From the IMG/VR virus record IMGVR_UViG_3300013307_000013, positions 1 through 40,492 of that record: DNA of 40,492 nt, one strand, 5' to 3'. The position numbers were made by a program, and so were the translations under genes. Shown piece by piece: positions 1 through 18,102 of the stretch. The stretch is from a virus. The stretch's first letter is position 1, and each line of letters opens with the position of its first letter. A model generated the notes under the pieces. The model searched no databases, was not told where the DNA came from, and saw only the letters and a program-made list of their open reading frames with translations.

Positions 1-79
1 CGAGACGGACGGCATTCCGCCCAGGGTGAAGCGAGCTGCGCGGGCCAAGAAAGCCATCGCTCACACGAGGGGGAACTGA
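1..79 (+). CDS. 3' end of the 123-aa early protein (duplicate of 40370-40448)
   Basis: The reading frame enters from the window edge and stops at TGA 77-79, giving the basic Arg/Lys/Ala-rich tail of the protein encoded completely at 40077-40448. It is present twice only because the window repeats its first 123 bases. The stop overlaps the ATG of the next gene (79), so the two genes are translationally coupled. Confidence 0.9.
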   Translation, partial: ETDGIPPRVKRAARAKKAIAHTRGN

Positions 80-123
80 TGCGCCTGGACAGCGTAGACA
101 CCGTGGTGAACTTCGCCAAAGCA
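1..123. repeat. Terminal direct repeat, left copy (circular overlap)
   Basis: Bases 1-123 are identical to 40370-40492. The repeat cuts through two coding regions, the end of a 123-aa gene and the start of the base-hypermodification gene. It therefore looks like the overlap of a circular assembly rather than a biological terminal repeat. The unique genome length is 40,369 bp. A circular assembly fits a circularly permuted (headful) genome, but a cohesive-end genome read as a concatemer would look the same. Confidence 0.95.
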
Positions 124-954
124 CGCCATCGGCTCTGGGAGGGCAAGCCTGTCAAGTCACCAATCCTCACCACCCGCAAGTTCACCAATGTGTTCCGGGT
201 GCTGGACCGAGGCAGCCAGTACTTGCTGAGCCTGATGAACATGCACGACGATATGATCGACAGGGTGGCGCTGAGCTACCTGTATCGGCAGATCAACCGG
301 CCAGATACCTTTGACGTCATCATCGACCAGAACGATGGGTACATCCCCGCAGCGGAAGACATCTTCAACCCGTTCTGGTATGACAAGGTCATCGCGCCCG
401 TCGTAGCTGCGCGGCCGGGAGCCTTCCTGAATGGCGCCTACATCATCCTCATCAAGCCTGGCGACAAGCGGGGCACGGTGGAGAAGATGAAGGACGTGTT
501 CCCGCGTGCTGAGAAGTGGTTGGGTCATGTGGCCGGGATGGGTGACCTAGCCACACGTGTCCTCTTGCTGGAGGAGACGCCTGGCATCGGGCCGTTCTTG
601 GCGATGCAGATTGCGACGGACATGGGCTACACCAAGGGCGAGCCTGACCAGGAGAACAGCTACGTTCTCGCCGGGCCTGGCAGCCGCAAGGGCGTCGGTG
701 AGATGCTGGGGCTGGGCAAGGATGCGACTCAGATGCAAGCCCAGATGACGATCGCTCAGTTCCCGGTGGAGCGCCTGCCTGCGCTGCCCTACAGCAATGG
801 GCGACCGCCCAGCCTGATGGATATCCAGAACGTGTTCTGCGAGTACTCCAAGTACTGCCGCATGGTGCGCAAGGGTGACCGGGGCACTGGAAAGCCCTAC
901 GTTCGGGGCGAGCGGTTTGAAACCCTGATCCCAGCTCAGTTCGTAAGAAGTTGA
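79..954 (+). CDS. Putative DNA base-hypermodification protein (HMUDK-helical / HhH family)
   Basis: A 291-aa protein that I recognise as the family named after the 5-hmdU DNA kinase helical domain, related to the DNA-glycosylase-fold enzymes called alpha-glutamyl/putrescinyl thymine pyrophosphorylases or amino acid:DNA transferases. Seen in the sequence: KFTNVFRVLDRGSQYL (residues 34-49), a helix-hairpin-helix with TPGIGPFLAMQI (about 167-178), AGPGSRKG (198-205), and MDIQNVFCEYSKYCR (247-261). The HhH implies DNA contact, so it probably acts on modified bases already in DNA. The start overlaps the previous stop (TGATG) and has a GAGGGGG ribosome site. It lies just upstream of the dCMP hydroxymethylase, glycosyltransferase and kinase genes, which supports a role in hypermodification. 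The exact reaction is unknown; a kinase or glycosylase activity cannot be read from the sequence. Confidence 0.8.
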   Translation: MRLDSVDTVVNFAKARHRLWEGKPVKSPILTTRKFTNVFRVLDRGSQYLLSLMNMHDDMIDRVALSYLYRQINRPDTFDVIIDQNDGYIPAAEDIFNPFWYDKVIAPVVAARPGAFLNGAYIILIKPGDKRGTVEKMKDVFPRAEKWLGHVAGMGDLATRVLLLEETPGIGPFLAMQIATDMGYTKGEPDQENSYVLAGPGSRKGVGEMLGLGKDATQMQAQMTIAQFPVERLPALPYSNGRPPSLMDIQNVFCEYSKYCRMVRKGDRGTGKPYVRGERFETLIPAQFVRS

Positions 955-963
955 ACTTGGGGG

Positions 964-992
964 TTGCGCTGTTCTTGACGAACGGCTAAGCT
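964..992 (+). promoter_or_regulatory. Promoter for a leaderless gene (TTGCGC-17-TAAGCT)
   Basis: The -35 TTGCGC (964-969) and -10 TAAGCT (987-992) are 17 bp apart. The -10 ends only 6 bp before ATG 999, so transcription should start at or next to the start codon. The same -35/-10 pattern occurs ahead of six other phage genes. Confidence 0.75.
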
Positions 993-998
993 GAAGTC

Positions 999-1271
999 AT
1001 GAACAGCGCAGCCCCCACCAGCCTTCGCGACCTTAGCCCCGCGCAGTCGCACGCAGTCCGCTCGCTTGGCTCGGTGATGAAGTACCGAACCGCTACCGAG
1101 CTGGAGCTGGCCCCCAGCACTCTTCAGTCGCTGGTTCGCCTGGGCCTGGTCGAGATGAAGTCCTACCGGGTGCAGTCTTCCAACCCCCGTGCTCGTGTCA
1201 GCAACGAGCCGATCATCCGCAGCTACCGGAACAGCATGGCGGGTTACCGCCTGGCACGAAAGGGTCTCTGA
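999..1271 (+). CDS. Small winged-helix-like DNA-binding protein
   Basis: A 90-aa basic protein. Residues about 24-60 read like a winged helix (LGSVMKYRTATELELAPSTL, then a recognition-like segment with LVRLGLVEMKSY), followed by a basic loop and YRLARKGL. It could be a transcription regulator of the early or late promoters, but the family is not identified. It is probably translated from a leaderless mRNA: there is no ribosome-binding site and the -10 box ends 6 bp upstream. Its first 14 coding bases are identical to those of the leaderless gene at 16320. Confidence 0.65.
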   Translation: MNSAAPTSLRDLSPAQSHAVRSLGSVMKYRTATELELAPSTLQSLVRLGLVEMKSYRVQSSNPRARVSNEPIIRSYRNSMAGYRLARKGL

Positions 1272-1273
1272 AC

Positions 1274-1585
1274 ATGGCTGACCACATCACTGACAAGGCC
1301 ATCTGGTCCGCGACGAAGGCATGGTATCTCACGCTGAACCACGGCATCGCCTGGGACAGCCTGACCCCCGAGCAGCGGAGCCAGGTACGAGCTGAATACC
1401 TGGAGCATCAGGAGCGAGTACCCCGCAGCGCCCACGCACTGCGCGCTGAGCTGCGCAAGGCACGCATTGACATCGGCATCCTGGAGCGCAAGCTGGCAGC
1501 AGCCAACGCGAAGATCGCCCGCTTTGAAGCTTCCCGTGAGCTGGCCGCAGTGCTGGCATCCGATCAAGAACCGAGCTGCCCCTAA
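1274..1585 (+). CDS. Hypothetical protein with C-terminal coiled coil
   Basis: A 103-aa protein starting 2 bases after the previous stop. Residues about 55-95 are rich in Ala, Leu, Glu, Lys and Arg with heptad character, and should form a coiled coil. The N-terminal half contains SLTPEQRSQVRAEYLEHQE, a helical segment. There is no recognisable catalytic motif. It is probably co-transcribed with the winged-helix gene; a small hairpin (1578-1593) overlaps its stop codon. Confidence 0.65.
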   Translation: MADHITDKAIWSATKAWYLTLNHGIAWDSLTPEQRSQVRAEYLEHQERVPRSAHALRAELRKARIDIGILERKLAAANAKIARFEASRELAAVLASDQEPSCP

Positions 1586-1593
1586 GTTGGGGC

Positions 1594-1623
1594 TTGCTTC
1601 AATCTGACCACCCGTGGTAGACT
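1594..1623 (+). promoter_or_regulatory. Promoter for the hypermodification genes (TTGCTT-18-TAGACT)
   Basis: The -35 TTGCTT (1594-1599) and -10 TAGACT (1618-1623) are 18 bp apart. The -10 lies 32 bp before the ATG at 1656, leaving room for a leader with an AAGGAGG site. A 5-bp GCCCC/GGGGC hairpin (1578-1593) sits immediately upstream and may insulate it from the previous gene. Confidence 0.65.
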
Positions 1624-1655
1624 GGCCACACCCTACAGCAGTCCAAGGAGGACTC

Positions 1656-2510
1656 ATGCTTCACAAGAATTCCATTGATGACGTGGTCCTGGCGCTTGAC
1701 GCAGCGCCCGTTGACCCCCGAACCGGTAACCGAGTCCTCTACTCGGTGGATTGGGTGGCCGACAAGGATTCCATGATCGGCGAGATCAATCCCGACTGGG
1801 TGCGCCGCGAGCTGGACTGGTTCAACCTCGGCAGCGACCGCCTCTCCGACATGGAAGGCCCCGTGCCCAAGCTGTTCCAGGCTTGCGCAGGCGCCGACGG
1901 TCGCGTCAACAGCGCCTACGGATACGTCCTGTTCAACCAGGATGCCACTCGCTTCAACGACGACATGTCGCTGTACGAGCGTGCGCTGCTGGCGTTGCTC
2001 CAGGAGGGACCGGCCACCCGACACTCGGTGGTCATCGTCAGCGACCGTGATATCCACCGATTGTCCCGCATGAACGAGCGCAACGACTTCATCTGCACCA
2101 ACGCGCTGAACTTCATGGTGGACACCGAGTACCGGGTCAACATCATCGCCCAGATGCGCAGCATGGACGCCGTGTTCGGCTACCGTGCCGACTACAGCAT
2201 GTGGGACAACCTGATGGACCGGCTAGTCACCGACCTGAACCTGGCGTTCGGCCAGGGCTATCCTGAGTTCTCTCGTGGCGACATCACCTTTCAGGTGGCC
2301 AACCTGCACGTCTACCCGCGTCACTTCGAGCTGCTGGCCGATACCGCAGCCGACACCCAGGAGCGCCTGGATCGGCGTGTGTGGCAGGCCCCCACGTTCA
2401 GCGAGCGGCACACCAAGGTCGGCGCTGATGGCGTGGAGCGCATGTTGAAGCCCACGGCCATCGTCGCAGACAACGAACAGGCTGACTTCGGTGGGTGGGA
2501 AGACCGATGA
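1656..2510 (+). CDS. dCMP hydroxymethylase (thymidylate synthase superfamily, T4 gp42-like)
   Basis: A 284-aa enzyme predicted to use methylene-tetrahydrofolate to turn dCMP into 5-hydroxymethyl-dCMP. Seen: RRELDWF (50-56), NSAYGY (85-90), catalytic Cys147 in NDFICTN (143-149), RSMDAVFGYRADYSMW (168-183) and LHVYPRHFELL (217-227). These line up well with T4 dCMP hydroxymethylase as I remember it. In thymidylate synthase the residue after GLPF is Asn; here the equivalent residue is Asp179, the change associated with dCMP instead of dUMP. The chosen start at ATG 1656 follows a CAAGGAGGACTC ribosome site; an upstream in-frame start at 1614 lies over the promoter and lacks one. The C-terminal 50 residues are extra and unassigned. 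A dUMP hydroxymethylase is the main alternative. Confidence 0.9.
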   Translation: MLHKNSIDDVVLALDAAPVDPRTGNRVLYSVDWVADKDSMIGEINPDWVRRELDWFNLGSDRLSDMEGPVPKLFQACAGADGRVNSAYGYVLFNQDATRFNDDMSLYERALLALLQEGPATRHSVVIVSDRDIHRLSRMNERNDFICTNALNFMVDTEYRVNIIAQMRSMDAVFGYRADYSMWDNLMDRLVTDLNLAFGQGYPEFSRGDITFQVANLHVYPRHFELLADTAADTQERLDRRVWQAPTFSERHTKVGADGVERMLKPTAIVADNEQADFGGWEDR

Positions 2511-2797
2511 TCATCGCAGAGGTCGGCTGGAACATCTTGGTGTTCCTGTTCTGGGTGCTTGTCATCCTGGGTGCGATCATCATCGTGGCAGCTGTGATCG
2601 TGGGCGCTGTGCGCGCAGTCAACGGCTGGTTCCCGAAACGCAGCGAGTACCTGCGCAACGCAGCGGTCGAAAGCGAGCGCATCTACCAGAACGGCATCCT
2701 GGAGCAGGACTCTCAGGAGGCCTTCTATCGGGGGGCCAAGTGGGGATGGGATCAGCATCACAAGCTGACCCGCAGGCCCAGTGACCCGATGATCTAA
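2507..2797 (+). CDS. Small single-pass membrane protein
   Basis: A 96-aa protein whose ATG overlaps the stop of the hydroxymethylase gene (ATGA). Residues about 7-34 form one long hydrophobic segment rich in Val, Ile, Leu and Ala, followed by a charged, probably cytoplasmic domain ending near GAKWGWDQHHK. No family is recognised. It is translationally coupled to the hydroxymethylase, so it belongs to the same operon, but nothing in it suggests an enzymatic role. Confidence 0.7.
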   Translation: MIIAEVGWNILVFLFWVLVILGAIIIVAAVIVGAVRAVNGWFPKRSEYLRNAAVESERIYQNGILEQDSQEAFYRGAKWGWDQHHKLTRRPSDPMI

Positions 2798-2804
2798 GCC
2801 CCTG

Positions 2805-2838
2805 CCCCCTACCACGCTGGGGATCCCGTGGTAGGGGG
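2805..2838. terminator. Strong hairpin between early genes
   Basis: A perfect 12-bp stem (2805-2816 with 2827-2838) around a 10-base loop. There is no T run after it, so it may be an attenuator, a transcript-processing or stabilising element, or an operator rather than a classic intrinsic terminator. It separates the membrane-protein gene from the next small gene. Confidence 0.55.
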
Positions 2839-2860
2839 TAGGCATATCCCTGAGGATAGC

Positions 2861-3085
2861 ATGGGAAAGCAAGTACTTCTTCATGGCGGGCCTCTCAACG
2901 GCAAGTGGATGATGCTGGATGACAATGTCAACCACTTCCACATCGAAGAGTTCACACCGCCCAGTCAGGCTCAGTACCGAGGCGAGCTGCCAGCAGAACC
3001 TGAGACCAGGATAGGCACCTACAGCCAGGTGTCCGGCATTGAGAATAGACAGAACTTTGAGTGGGACGGATGGGTAAAGCATTGA
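2861..3085 (+). CDS. Hypothetical small protein
   Basis: A 74-aa protein beginning with VLLHGGPLNGKWMML, a beta-rich opening common in small phage proteins of unknown role. No catalytic motif is seen. ATG 2861 is preferred to the in-frame GTG at 2828, which lies inside the hairpin. The ribosome site is weak (TGAGGA). Its 3' end overlaps the start of the glycosyltransferase gene. Confidence 0.6.
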   Translation: MGKQVLLHGGPLNGKWMMLDDNVNHFHIEEFTPPSQAQYRGELPAEPETRIGTYSQVSGIENRQNFEWDGWVKH

Positions 3086-4014
3086 ACAGTCACCTTCAGC
3101 TGCTGCGGCAGGCCAAGGTCTCGTGGATCTGGCCGATCTACGTGCCCAGCTACAGTCGAGCCGGCTCGGCCACACTCCTGGATACGTTCGCCAAGGCTCC
3201 GGCCAGCGTCCAGCGCAGGGTGCACATCATGGTCCGTAGAGAGGAGCGAGAGGCCTACGAGCAGGCTTACCCGTGGGCTAAGGTGCGGACGCATCGCGGG
3301 CCGTATGGCGTCGGCCCTGCGCGAGCAGCTATCCTCCGGGATGCTGAGCAGCGGGGACACGAGCGCATCGTCATGATGGATGATGATGTGACGCACCTGT
3401 CGCTCATGGAGCGCATCACCAGGCCAGACGGCACGCAGCACACCAGGAGATGGAGCGAGAAGCTGGCCGACCAGGCGACTCAGGTGCACTTGCCGCATAG
3501 CCTGGCAGTCGCCTGCCGCATGGCTGACCGTGTTTTCGAGCTTCAGCCTGACGCAGCCTACGGCAGCGCTCGCCAGGGCCTCTTCAGTGGGGACGTGGAT
3601 ACCAGCGTCGGCGCGTTCATGGACAAGGGCGGATTCCCTGCCTGCGTCATCTTCTTCGACATGGCCCGCTTCTCATGGCGCGAGTGCCCCGAGCCGTATC
3701 GCCTGCACGGCGAGGACCTCAGCATGTTCCTGCACACGCTGACTGAGGGCAAGGGCGCGTTCGTGATTCCCAGTGTGGCCTACGATACGAACACCCGGCT
3801 GGACAGCACAATCCCTCTGGACCCGCTTGACGAGCGTGGTCGCCAGGATGACCTGGATGCCGCAGCTGAGGTCTACCCGCAGGTTGCCCACTACCTCCGA
3901 GCCACGATGCGAAACAAGGCTGGAGGTATCATGAAGATCGGTGTACACTGGCCTCAATGGTACAGGGAGACCGAACTTCAGCCCACGATAATCCCCATGC
4001 AAGAACTCATCTAA
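3070..4014 (+). CDS. TET-associated-type glycosyltransferase (TAGT-like)
   Basis: A 314-aa GT-A-fold glycosyltransferase predicted to add a sugar to hydroxymethylated bases in DNA. Seen: YVPSYSRAGS near the N terminus (24-33), the nucleotide-sugar-binding strand; GVGPARAAILRDA (80-92); and the metal-binding DXD-type motif MMDDDV (102-107). YRLHGEDLSMF in the second half is a likely acceptor/catalytic region. This pattern matches the TAGT family of phages and fungi, usually found beside TET/JBP dioxygenases. No TET is seen here; instead a dCMP hydroxymethylase and a P-loop kinase lie next door and would supply the hydroxymethylated base. The start could be GTG 3061 or ATG 3070; both overlap the previous gene. 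The sugar donor cannot be inferred. Confidence 0.8.
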   Translation: MGKALNSHLQLLRQAKVSWIWPIYVPSYSRAGSATLLDTFAKAPASVQRRVHIMVRREEREAYEQAYPWAKVRTHRGPYGVGPARAAILRDAEQRGHERIVMMDDDVTHLSLMERITRPDGTQHTRRWSEKLADQATQVHLPHSLAVACRMADRVFELQPDAAYGSARQGLFSGDVDTSVGAFMDKGGFPACVIFFDMARFSWRECPEPYRLHGEDLSMFLHTLTEGKGAFVIPSVAYDTNTRLDSTIPLDPLDERGRQDDLDAAAEVYPQVAHYLRATMRNKAGGIMKIGVHWPQWYRETELQPTIIPMQELI

Positions 4015-4026
4015 GGAGAGCAGAAA

Positions 4027-4626
4027 GTGTTCATCGCATTCGAGGGTCCTGACATGACAGGAAAGTCCACCAGCGCGAAGCTGCTGGATTGTGCCCACCA
4101 GCCGGACTACAACGCCACGAAGAGAATGCACGAAGCGAACGTGCGTGACTGGAATGGCGACGCCAACGTGGACCCCATGCCACACACCTACGACCGCATC
4201 GACTGGTTCACTCACATGGTCTACCGGCTGGCGCTGCCGGACCGTGACTGGAACGACGATCGGCCCCGCACAGTGTTCGCCATGCCTGACACCCACTTGG
4301 TCGTCAAGATCCACAAGCCCGAGCTTGCAGGCTTCACGGCTGACGAGATCGTGGACACACCCATTGCACGGGTGAACCCGATGTACTACTACTTCGCCGA
4401 CTACTTCATGATGCTGAACCGTATGCGCAGCTACGAGCTGTTCAAGACGGTCAGCATCGTGGAGGTCTCCAACTACCAGGAGACCGGCGACTTCAGTCAG
4501 CGCCTTGTGGCGTTTGACTCGCCCACCCAAGGCTGGAATTCCGACCTGCTGCCGTTGGAGCGGCTGGTAGACGGCGACGACAGCCTACTCGCGTTCCTGC
4601 AAGATGTCAACCATCGCCTCGGCTGA
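4027..4626 (+). CDS. P-loop deoxynucleotide kinase (thymidylate-kinase-like)
   Basis: A 199-aa kinase starting at GTG 4027, with AAGGAG 8 bases upstream. It has a Walker A loop GPDMTGKST (7-15) right at the N terminus and a thymidylate-kinase-like region TYDRIDWF. In this context it most likely phosphorylates hydroxymethyl-dCMP so that it can enter the triphosphate pool, as T4 gp1 does. The alternative, suggested by the HMUDK-related protein at 79, is a kinase acting on hydroxymethylated bases in DNA. The two cannot be separated from sequence alone. It sits 12 bases after the glycosyltransferase gene in the same operon. Confidence 0.75.
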   Translation: MFIAFEGPDMTGKSTSAKLLDCAHQPDYNATKRMHEANVRDWNGDANVDPMPHTYDRIDWFTHMVYRLALPDRDWNDDRPRTVFAMPDTHLVVKIHKPELAGFTADEIVDTPIARVNPMYYYFADYFMMLNRMRSYELFKTVSIVEVSNYQETGDFSQRLVAFDSPTQGWNSDLLPLERLVDGDDSLLAFLQDVNHRLG

Positions 4627-5323
4627 CCCGCATCTGGGGCACCTGCACACGATAGAAGTCCTGGTCGCCCGCAGCAAGCGGAAGGCCACACGCAAGGAAG
4701 CCCTCCAGGAGCTGGCCCGCTACTGGGATCAAGGCCGAGGCCTACAGAAGCACGGAAGGACCAACGTCATGCCCAAGAAGACCAGGGCGCACAGCACGCC
4801 AGACCCTCGCACGTTCACCGGGCAGGGCATCATCTTCGCCATCATCGATGACCCGGAGAACATGGTCAGCTCGGCCACCGAGCGCAAGGGCAGGCTGACC
4901 ACTATCGATATCATCGCAGACGCCATCGAGAAGGCGCTCGACGCCGGTAACGAGACCAGTGATGAGATCGCCCGCTACCTCACCACTAGCGCCTTCCAGC
5001 ACATTCCTGACAAGCGGGTCCGCTTCAACAGTGTGCTAAAGGCTGGCGACGTGGTGGGCGCCCAGATCACCAGGAAGCTGTACAACGCTTACAACGAGCT
5101 TGCCGCCCTGGCAGAAGAGGAGACAGACCCACAGCAGAAGAAGCTCATATTGGCCGAAGCCAGCGGCTTCGCCGAAGCGCTGAACGTGGTGCTTAGCCCG
5201 TTCAGCTGTGAAGACCCCAAGGATCCTCGGCTGGTGAATTGGGACGAGATCGATCGCATCACCGCAGCGTTCGAAAAGGAACAGCGGTTCGTCCGCAGAG
5301 ACAGGAATGGAAGACCCCAATGA
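4604..5323 (+). CDS. Hypothetical early protein
   Basis: A 239-aa mostly helical, charged protein of unknown function, overlapping the kinase gene by 23 bases. Residues about 85-125 (IDIIADAIEKALDAG, DEIARYL) and 140-200 look like helical bundles; no catalytic motif is seen. The start is uncertain: ATG 4769, with GGAAGGA upstream, would give a shorter 184-aa protein. Its position between the kinase and the NTP pyrophosphohydrolase suggests a part in nucleotide or DNA modification, but this is inference only. Confidence 0.6.
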   Translation: MSTIASADPHLGHLHTIEVLVARSKRKATRKEALQELARYWDQGRGLQKHGRTNVMPKKTRAHSTPDPRTFTGQGIIFAIIDDPENMVSSATERKGRLTTIDIIADAIEKALDAGNETSDEIARYLTTSAFQHIPDKRVRFNSVLKAGDVVGAQITRKLYNAYNELAALAEEETDPQQKKLILAEASGFAEALNVVLSPFSCEDPKDPRLVNWDEIDRITAAFEKEQRFVRRDRNGRPQ

Positions 5324-6294
5324 ACGACTATCGCAAGAAGCCCGTCACCGTGGAAGCCCGTCAGTTCGTGGCTGCCCCCTGGAACGATCAGGAGAAGCTG
5401 GCGCAGTGGTGTCACGGCAAGCTGCGCGGCGAGCACATGAAGCCTGCCGAGCGCGTCATCCAGATCGAGACGCTGGAAGGCGAGATGGAGGCCAGCGTCG
5501 GGGACTACATCATCAAGGGCGTCGCTGGGGAGTTCTACCCGTGCAAGCCTGAGATCTTCGCCCAGTCGTACACCGAGGTCGGCGCCAGTGGCGACCGGGA
5601 GTATGTGCTGGCTCGGCTGCTGGCGCACGCTGAGGTCACCGTCCCTGAGATCCATCTGCCGCAGTCGGCGTTCGTGGAGGGCTATCACGTGGAGCTCGGA
5701 GAGCACCGCTTCACGCAGGCTCAGTGGGAGGCCATCCAGCTCTACGCGTCTGGTGTGGCTGAGGTCGCGATGCAGGAGTACGAGCAGGAAGGTGAGCGCC
5801 TGCGCAGCGAGGCACGTTTCGGGCACAAGGCACAGCGACAGAACGCTGACTTCCATGAGGCGATGAGCATCGCAACGGCGCCCAGCCCGCAGGCCATCCC
5901 GAAGAGCGATGTTCCCGTGGTCATCGAGCTGATCCGTGAGGAGTTCATAGATGAGCTGATCCCTGCCTTGGGGGCAGCCGTGTCGTTCACTCCCGACGGC
6001 AAGTTCGAGCACATCGTGGTGAACGGTGAGCCGAACGTCGTAGAGATCTACGATGCCCTCATCGACATCCTCTACGTCACCTATGGTGCGCTCAACCGTG
6101 CAGGCATGGATGCTGATCCTGGATACGACGAGGTCCAGGGCAGCAACATGTCCAAGCTGGGTGAGGATGGCAAGGCCATCATCGCCGGCGAGAACGACCC
6201 AGACGGCATCTTCCCGGGCCGCGTGAAGAAGGGGCCGAACTACTACAAGCCGAACCTCGCTGCTGTGCTGCGCGACCAGGGCTGGGAAGGCTGA
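5320..6294 (+). CDS. MazG-like NTP pyrophosphohydrolase with N-terminal phage domain
   Basis: A 324-aa two-domain protein; ATG 5320 overlaps the previous stop (ATGA). Residues 1-87 form a small domain common in phages (KKPVTVEARQF, then GDYIIKGVAGEFYPCKPEIF). Residues about 180-324 form an all-alpha NTP pyrophosphohydrolase domain with the acidic helices LIREEFIDEL (204-213) and EIYDALIDILY (242-252), plus SNMSKL (275-280) and KGPNYYKPNL (304-313), typical of phage PRA-PH/MazG-like enzymes. The T4 dCTPase gp56 shares this fold. Beside a dCMP hydroxymethylase, the likely job is to hydrolyse the unmodified dNTP (dCTP) so that only modified nucleotide is used. Substrate is inferred from context. 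Confidence 0.75.
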   Translation: MNDYRKKPVTVEARQFVAAPWNDQEKLAQWCHGKLRGEHMKPAERVIQIETLEGEMEASVGDYIIKGVAGEFYPCKPEIFAQSYTEVGASGDREYVLARLLAHAEVTVPEIHLPQSAFVEGYHVELGEHRFTQAQWEAIQLYASGVAEVAMQEYEQEGERLRSEARFGHKAQRQNADFHEAMSIATAPSPQAIPKSDVPVVIELIREEFIDELIPALGAAVSFTPDGKFEHIVVNGEPNVVEIYDALIDILYVTYGALNRAGMDADPGYDEVQGSNMSKLGEDGKAIIAGENDPDGIFPGRVKKGPNYYKPNLAAVLRDQGWEG

Positions 6295-8657: not shown

Positions 8658-8743
8658 GGACCGGTAGCTCAATCGGTAGAGCTTAGCCCTGTTGCGCCAG
8701 GGCACGAGGCATCGTGGTGCAGGTTCGACTCCTGTCCGGTCCA
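8658..8743 (+). tRNA. tRNA-like gene with non-standard anticodon arm
   Basis: The acceptor stem GGACCGG/CCGGTCC pairs perfectly (8658-8664 with 8736-8742, discriminator A 8743). The D arm GCTC-AATCGGTA-GAGC is standard (8667-8682). The T arm has the TTCGACT loop and a 5-bp stem (8719-8735). The middle is unusual: the only good stem is GCCCTG/CAGGGC (8686-8691 with 8698-8703) with a 6-base loop, or 5 bp with an 8-base loop, set three bases after the D stem. A second small hairpin, ACGA/TCGT (8704-8715), acts as a long variable arm. The anticodon is therefore ambiguous (UGC, GCG or GUU depending on the fold). CCA is not encoded. It may be an atypical, decayed or tRNA-mimic RNA. Confidence 0.65.
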
Positions 8744-8788
8744 CTGCACTAAACTGAACACACAGCCCCCACGGCACTAGGAGTCCAC

Positions 8789-17403: not shown

Positions 17404-18102
17404 TTACTGGTTAACGATGCAGAGCGAGGCTGGTGTCCACGCCTGCGTTAGTGGAGACTCGGGATCGGTCCGGGTCTGCACGTATACGGTAGTCAAGGTC
17501 GTACCGTCAGGGCACGTGGGTCCGGCCACACCTTGCGGGCCTTGCGGACCTGCGGGGCCAGCGGGACCCTGAGGGCCAGCAGGACCGGCCGGACCAGTAT
17601 CGCCCTGCGCACCAGCAGGACCCGGCTGACCTTCAGCGCCTGCGGGTCCAGGTGCGCCAGTGGCGCCAGGTGCCCCTGGAGCGCCAGGGATGCCAGGCTC
17701 GCCTTGATCACCTTGGATGCCCTGCGCGCCAGGGGCGCCCGTGGCCCCAGTCGGGCCGACAACCGGGTTGGACGGCCGAGGAGCCTCGGGCTGCTGCCCC
17801 AGCTTAGTGAGCTGATCGTACAGGGTCTGTGCCGTGTCGGTAAGGTGGTCAATGCGCTGATCCTTGGCAGCGATCGCGATGTTCTGCTGCACAACACGAT
17901 CTGACAACCGGTCATTGGTCGCAGCAAGGTTCCCCAGAAACCATGCCGTGACTCCAGCTGCCAGCAAAAGGAAGACGGTGGCGAACGCATAGGGCCACCA
18001 TCTCACGCGCGTCTCAGGTATCTCGTACGTAGCTGCCACTGTCGCTCCAGGTGAAGTGTCGGCCCGCGTCGGGCTTATGAGCTGTTCTTCGTCATCGTTC
18101 AT
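17404..18102 (-). CDS. Membrane-anchored collagen-like protein in the lysis region
   Basis: A 232-aa protein: charged N terminus, one transmembrane helix (about 36-57), a coiled-coil stalk (about 60-103), then 26 uninterrupted Gly-X-Y triplets (116-193) and a C-terminal cap with two cysteines (Cys196, Cys228) that could form a disulphide. This architecture predicts a trimeric rod projecting from the membrane. It overlaps the preceding XhlA-like gene (ATGA) and lies just before the holin. It may help lysis or alter the cell envelope. Phage collagen repeats are more often found in tail fibres, so a fibre role is possible but the transmembrane helix argues against it. Confidence 0.8.

Follow-up and report, generated by a model that had tools for sequence, protein, structure and literature searches.

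T-even phages (T4, T2 and T6) modify cytosine by means of gp42, gp1, gp56 and glucosyltransferases, and the second glucosyltransferase of T2 and T6, the substrate of which is glucosylated 5-hydroxymethylcytosine (hmC), belongs to the TAGT family PF20691 (PMC13216743, PMC13390438). Of 753 phage genomes, 288 have a solitary TAGT, and these enzymes have been termed potential novel transferases (PMC13216743). In genes for thymidylate synthase (TS), the residue at position 177 of the E. coli enzyme is mostly Asp on modified-cytosine contigs and mostly Asn elsewhere, and PF01503 is among the domains co-occurring with TS (PMC8670742). In phage M6, the PF18723 (HMUDK_hel) protein gp55 adjoins the kinase gp54, while gp51 represents the amino-acid transferase family PF18724 (ADDT); no statement on the function of PF18723 proteins was found in the literature. 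Here, we analyse a gene block in a soil phage, IMG/VR record IMGVR_UViG_3300013307_000013 (40,492 bases, all of which are referred to as the window), that encodes a TS-fold protein, a TAGT, a P-loop kinase, a MazG-fold protein and a PF18723 protein, which we refer to as the helical protein. This phage very probably builds DNA with hmC and then adds a sugar, as T4 does.

The genome is related to the phages of Microbacterium cluster EA. Its nearest database relatives are the Microbacterium phages Nebulous and Neferthena of the genus Neferthenavirus (~81% identity across 77% of the first 12 kb). The description of cluster EA lists a MazG-like protein as well as a thymidylate synthase, and a statement on DNA modification was not found in it (PMC7302621); similarly, no report of measured DNA chemistry in Microbacterium EA phages was found in the open-access literature. 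Both contig ends carry an identical, exact overlap of 123 bases, giving a circularised genome of ~40.4 kb. Therefore, the genome is complete and circular, and the absence of a gene from it can be interpreted.

The predicted hydroxymethylase and glycosyltransferase

The TS-fold protein passed the PF00303 cut-off narrowly (26.1 bits; cut-off 24.3) and matched the PHROG TS family with an E-value of 6e-34. When the single sequence was searched against the PDB with phmmer, the T4 dCMP hydroxymethylases were the only significant matches (best E-value, 3.3e-33). Moreover, Cys147, Arg168, Asp179 and His218 align with Cys148, Arg168, Asp179 and His216 of the T4 enzyme, and Asp179, which is the pyrimidine-specificity residue, was present in the window as well as in all 18 further EA loci that were scored. 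An alternative in-frame GTG start of the gene at 1614 is possible. In total, these alignments argue strongly that the TS-fold enzyme would be specific for dCMP.

The glycosyltransferase matched PF20691 at 44.7 bits (curated cut-off, 27.5). The match lies mainly in the N-terminal half (residues 22-114) and the C-terminal half is divergent; the TAGT acidic motifs are DDD at residues 104-106 and ED at residues 215-216, and the motif is invariant across 11 homologues including that of T2. The T2 genome scores with the same PF20691 model, and its TAGT-family gene lies directly behind gene 42; the combination of a dCMP hydroxymethylase and a TAGT is, thus, already known biology. Both the glycosyltransferase and the hydroxymethylase calls of an initial annotation of the window were upheld, the former by the PF20691 score and the latter by the PDB matches. 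By contrast, its suggestion that the glycosyltransferase is a borrowed part of a TET pathway, to which the family name 'TET-associated' had led, was not, as PF20691 includes the second glucosyltransferase of T2 and T6. A TAGT as the sign of a TET pathway was rejected on the same ground (PMC13216743) and on the absence of PF12851 from the complete genome at E-values up to 10, which agrees with the initial statement that no TET is visible. No relative of an alpha- or a beta-glucosyltransferase was recognised in the window, and the TAGT would, therefore, have to act on hmC itself. As a separate observation, the EA phages GreenIvy (L013:5693-7602) and Mercedes (L020:6550-8453) carry two tandem TAGT genes, which are ~40% identical in GreenIvy; such tandem TAGTs may add two sugars.

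The helical protein and its putative partners

The helical protein matched PF18723 over its full length (E-value 1.8e-34; 119.8 bits; cut-off 25) and keeps every residue that is invariant in 52 diverse homologues, i.e. R40, D43, F173, D181, G199, G201, G205, C254, E255 and K258. Its AlphaFold2 (AF2) model, for which the alignment rows were taken from IMG/VR, is all-helical with an HhH-GPD-like fold (predicted local distance difference test (pLDDT), 93.7). Among predicted viral structures, Foldseek placed the protein closest to other PF18723 proteins (homologue in Lucky3, template-modelling (TM) score 0.94), and the 5-hydroxymethyldeoxyuridine (5-hmdU) DNA kinase of SP10 matched with a TM score of 0.68. 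Matches in the PDB were weak and mostly to HhH-GPD DNA glycosylases; the 5-phosphomethyldeoxyuridine (5-PmdU) glycinyltransferase 8z2n was among them (TM about 0.44). The SP10 protein has 637 residues and matches the helical fold; that it is a fusion of kinase and helical protein is suggested by its name in BFVD and by phrog_800, to which kinases match near the beginning and the helical protein of ViI near the end.

The 5-hmdU DNA kinase family PF18748 and the related PF18751 are both absent from the complete genome, and our own kinase models likewise gave no match. Upstream of the helical protein, across the contig junction, there are only small open reading frames without a match to a P-loop family. 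ADDT was not detected in the window with a small home-built model (M6 gp51 and Pam3); the complete genome was not searched with PF18724 itself. The initial annotation had described the helical protein as a base-hypermodification protein. This description is corrected in that the protein is neither a kinase nor the amino-acid transferase, and would be a hypermodification enzyme only putatively: it belongs to PF18723, which in M6 adjoins the kinase, while the transfer is the task of PF18724.

Two observations concern other phages. In the T4-like Aeromonas phage 31, the C-terminal region of ORF233c (795 residues; L141:20184-22571) resembles PF18723 below the threshold (E-value 0.0036; Foldseek TM 0.70), and ORF233c is possibly a second link between the PF18723 fold and hmC. 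Moreover, M6 gp54 (L143:11686-12249), Golden gp55 (L015:1353-1958) and Koji gp53 are named 'terminase small subunit' in public records and in phrog_800. This label is wrong, and the three proteins are HMUDK-type P-loop kinases (PF18748/PF18751).

We gathered 80 PF18723 loci from IMG/VR and from a number of named phages, and scored the specificity residue of TS. Outside cluster EA, this residue was the dUMP-type Asn in 60 of 61 scorable loci, many of which are related, so that this is not a count of independent events; in EA it was always Asp. The lone exception, with Asp (L062), is a large-genome phage with a distant TS and a TAGT in its record. These data bear out the initial view that a helical protein of the thymidine pathway together with a dCMP-type TS is an unusual pairing. 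The EA helical proteins form a single clade on a long branch (support 100/100), so that the switch to a hydroxymethylase of the cytosine type seems to have happened once in this lineage.

Of 50 non-EA contigs with PF18723, 14 had a Pfam TAGT and 15 an HMUDK-type kinase (PF18748 or PF18751), and no contig had both (hypergeometric P=0.0025, uncorrected for kinship). The partner type switches at least seven times on the tree of helical proteins, and the genes for the helical protein and TAGT are frequently adjacent or overlapping. In LuckyBarnes, TS, two TAGTs and the helical protein form one run, and the whole genome contains no kinase. The home-built ADDT model found ADDT in eight loci with a helical protein, and every one of these also has an HMUDK-type kinase. 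Within EA, the helical protein of Golden has the kinase next to it and TAGT is missing from this phage, while the tested phages with a glycosyltransferase have a TAGT and no such kinase. A separate HMUDK-type kinase is carried by 13 Golden/Koji-type EA records; these and four Pikmin-type records account for the 17 EA records without a recognisable EA-type TAGT (totals were matched, not record by record). At the place of TAGT, the Pikmin-type records have a diverged TAGT that does not reach the Pfam cut-off.

The remaining genes of the block

The five genes named in the initial annotation all have reading frames at the positions it gave (Table 1). Its family assignments stood over the curated Pfam cut-offs for four of the proteins, with PF00303 passing narrowly; the P-loop kinase, by contrast, has no Pfam match. 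This kinase has its P-loop at residue 7 and matched the PHROG 'thymidylate kinase' family with an E-value of 2e-65, and matches to cytidylate and thymidylate kinases in the PDB were not significant (best E-value, 0.097). On the simplest reading, it would be a nucleotide kinase.

Table 1. Positions of the genes of the predicted modification block in the window
Feature	Position	Strand	Evidence
HMUDK_hel / aGPT-Pplase clade 1 protein, 291 aa	79..954	+	PF18723
Predicted T4 gp42-like dCMP 5-hydroxymethylase, 284 aa	1656..2510	+	PF00303, PDB matches, aligned residues
TAGT-family DNA glycosyltransferase (predicted), 314 aa	3070..4014	+	PF20691
P-loop kinase, proposed hmdCMP kinase (T4 gp1 role)	4027..4626	+	P-loop GPDMTGKS, phrog_4121
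Conserved protein phrog_4086, overlapping the kinase gene	4604..5323	+	found in each of the 191 EA records
MazG / PRA-PH-fold nucleotide pyrophosphohydrolase, proposed dCTPase (T4 gp56 role)	5320..6294	+	PF01503, phrog_4159

The MazG-fold protein matched PF01503 at 33.8 bits (cut-off 21.3; residues 177-276) and phrog_4159 with an E-value of 1e-102, and we propose from these matches that it may be a dCTPase. It has an extra N-terminal domain of ~97 residues (window 5320-5610; phrog_419 on residues 1-97). Many actinobacterial and staphylococcal phages have this domain on its own, and it is missing from shorter EA homologues (Nucci, Eleri).

The phrog_4086 gene, which the initial annotation had not included, equals the TS and kinase genes in conservation, each of the three being present in 191 Microbacterium phage records. 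Its product has no PDB or Pfam match, and its AF2 model is helical and too poor to interpret (pLDDT 57); the 'glycosyltransferase' label of the homologue in Luna18 is unsupported. The gene order of the block is kept in isolated phages, e.g. Nebulous and Gelo. Given this order and the 191 records, the block is not a chance arrangement.

Elsewhere in the window, a single tRNA-Asn (gtt) is encoded at 8658-8744; in relatives, a comparable position is taken by tRNA-Ala or tRNA-Phe. Moreover, a collagen-like protein with GPxG repeats behind a predicted membrane segment is encoded on the minus strand at 17404-18102.

Discussion

The make, phosphorylate, remove-dCTP and glycosylate scheme at the nucleotide level, the first three steps of which the initial annotation had matched to T4, is retained here: the TS-fold enzyme has Asp179, TET/JBP is absent, and the TS-fold enzyme has a MazG-fold protein as well as a P-loop kinase alongside it. 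As predicted from the sequence, the TS-fold enzyme would convert dCMP to 5-hydroxymethyl-dCMP, which the P-loop kinase would phosphorylate and a host NDP kinase complete to hmdCTP. The MazG-fold enzyme would remove dCTP, the phage DNA polymerase would incorporate hmdC, and the TAGT-family enzyme would put a sugar on the hydroxymethyl group in DNA. The helical protein may bind DNA and flip out the hydroxymethyl base for the transferase, while the chemistry would be done by its partner, i.e. the glycosyltransferase in the window phage and the HMUDK-type DNA kinase in its Golden/Koji relatives. Such a role would explain why the helical protein is retained alongside two unrelated transferases and on two different bases, and ADDT would not be needed. 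We consider it quite likely that hmC is made and then glycosylated, and likely that the explanation as a whole is right; for the base-presenting role taken by itself, the chances seem slightly below even.

Several observations weigh against this explanation. The family evidence for the P-loop kinase consists of the P-loop and the PHROG label. No fusion of the helical protein with a kinase or a TAGT was present among the fetched loci. Neither a TAGT nor a kinase was found in 21 of the 50 non-EA contigs, some of which are fragments. In phylogenetically independent pairs, TAGT and kinase never rise together, and the pairs are too few for their exclusion to be significant (median p 0.25). Finally, ~149 of the 191 EA records have a TAGT without a helical protein, so that the latter is not required for glycosylation generally. 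A base-presenting role leaves glycosylation in most EA phages unexplained, unless their glycosyltransferases have other access to the base, or the helical protein sets the sequence context or the extent of the modification.

The principal alternative is that the helical protein modifies bases as an enzyme in its own right (originally named aGPT-Pplase). It would then place another group on hmC or on the sugar, and the two modifications would be either successive or parallel. The retention of the family-invariant residues, as in an active enzyme, and the weak likeness of the fold to the glycinyltransferase 8z2n speak for it. However, the amino-acid transferase of M6 belongs to another family, the loci that are positive for ADDT all have an HMUDK-type kinase while the window is negative, and there is no kinase to provide a phosphate leaving group. 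Altogether, we regard an independent enzyme as unlikely. The glycosyltransferase, the family membership of which comes mainly from residues 22-114, might instead target the cell wall or protein, with DNA that bears plain hmC or only the product of the helical protein. This is improbable: within the operon, the TAGT gene is flanked by those for TS and the kinase; judging by counts, each EA phage carries a TAGT-type protein at this place or, failing that, an HMUDK-type kinase upstream; and DNA is the only context described for the TAGT family in the literature found.

Asp179 alone leaves hydroxymethyl-, methyl- and hydroxycytosine undistinguished. The N177D variant of E. coli TS produces 5-methyl-dCMP (5mdCMP; cited in PMC8670742), Mosigvirus phages have a TS-family 5-hydroxy-dCMP synthase (PMC13390438), and the RB69 enzyme likewise has Asp at the position of T4 Asp179. 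Nevertheless, a methyl product, or a hydroxy product as in RB69, has a rather low probability. The TS-fold protein is 32-33% identical to gp42 of T4 and T2 as compared with 20% over 118 residues (E-value about 4e-4) to the RB69 enzyme, and a glycosyltransferase requires a hydroxyl acceptor, which could not be derived from 5-methylcytosine without a TET. Hydroxymethyl is favoured because the TS-fold protein is close to gp42 and a glycosyltransferase is present without any TET. We also considered that the P-loop kinase, given its P-loop and its operon position, might be the missing DNA-base kinase of a thymidine-type phosphorylation route on hmC. However, none of the 191 EA records lacks it, neither the ~149 that have no helical protein nor the 13 with a separate HMUDK-type kinase. 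Moreover, in profile comparisons it aligns with HMUDK-type kinases at the P-loop alone, whereas the Golden kinase aligns with those of the M6 type over 170 columns (95.5%). On this distribution and comparison the candidate was rejected, and its probability is very small.

Returning to the base-presenting role, a broader idea, which is tentative and more doubtful than not, is that PF18723 proteins serve as a modular subunit that presents hydroxymethylated pyrimidines, and that they have changed their catalytic partner (kinase or TAGT) several times and, in EA, also their base, from 5-hydroxymethyluracil to hmC. If so, the Golden/Koji-type phages would carry an hmC DNA kinase and phosphorylated hmC. 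To our knowledge, phosphorylated hmC has not been reported. The natural variation in EA, i.e. TAGT only (Gelo), TAGT with the helical protein (Neferthena, Nebulous), or kinase with the helical protein (Golden, Koji), offers a ready comparison for the function of PF18723. The block is present in ~190 sequenced Microbacterium phage records, many of them from one well-known laboratory host; if the pathway is correct, glycosylation of hmC reaches small actinobacterial siphoviruses, which bears on restriction, CRISPR and sequencing work.

Compared with the T-even phages, the locus shares a dCMP hydroxymethylase, predicted here, that bears Asp179, a kinase and a pyrophosphohydrolase of the MazG fold alongside it and, with T2 and T6, a TAGT-family enzyme. 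It differs in that no alpha- or beta-glucosyltransferase is recognised, a PF18723 protein is added and the phage is a small siphovirus of an actinobacterium; moreover, its TAGT is ~20% identical overall to that of T2 and would act directly on hmC, while the T2 and T6 enzyme acts on glucosyl-hmC. With the thymidine hypermodification systems of M6, Pam3 and Rhizobium phages, it shares a block in which the PF18723 gene is accompanied by genes for a TS-fold enzyme and a DNA polymerase; those phages, however, have a TS of the dUMP type (Asn), an HMUDK-type kinase and ADDT, whereas in the window the residue is Asp and neither kinase nor ADDT was found. Brevibacterium phage LuckyBarnes is similar in having a helical protein with TAGT enzymes and no kinase, but has a dUMP-type TS (Asn), two TAGTs and a compact operon. 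Other EA phages (Neferthena, Nebulous, Gelo and Golden) have the same block of TS, kinase, phrog_4086 protein and MazG-fold protein; most EA phages lack the helical protein, and in the Golden/Koji group there is no TAGT, and the helical protein has an HMUDK-type kinase as its neighbour. The surprise is, thus, narrower than the initial annotation had it, and lies in a thymidine-pathway protein within a cytosine pathway. As judged from the sequences compared here, what is new is the pairing of the helical protein with a glycosyltransferase in place of a kinase and with a dCMP-type TS, together with an either/or pattern of TAGT and kinase in and outside EA.

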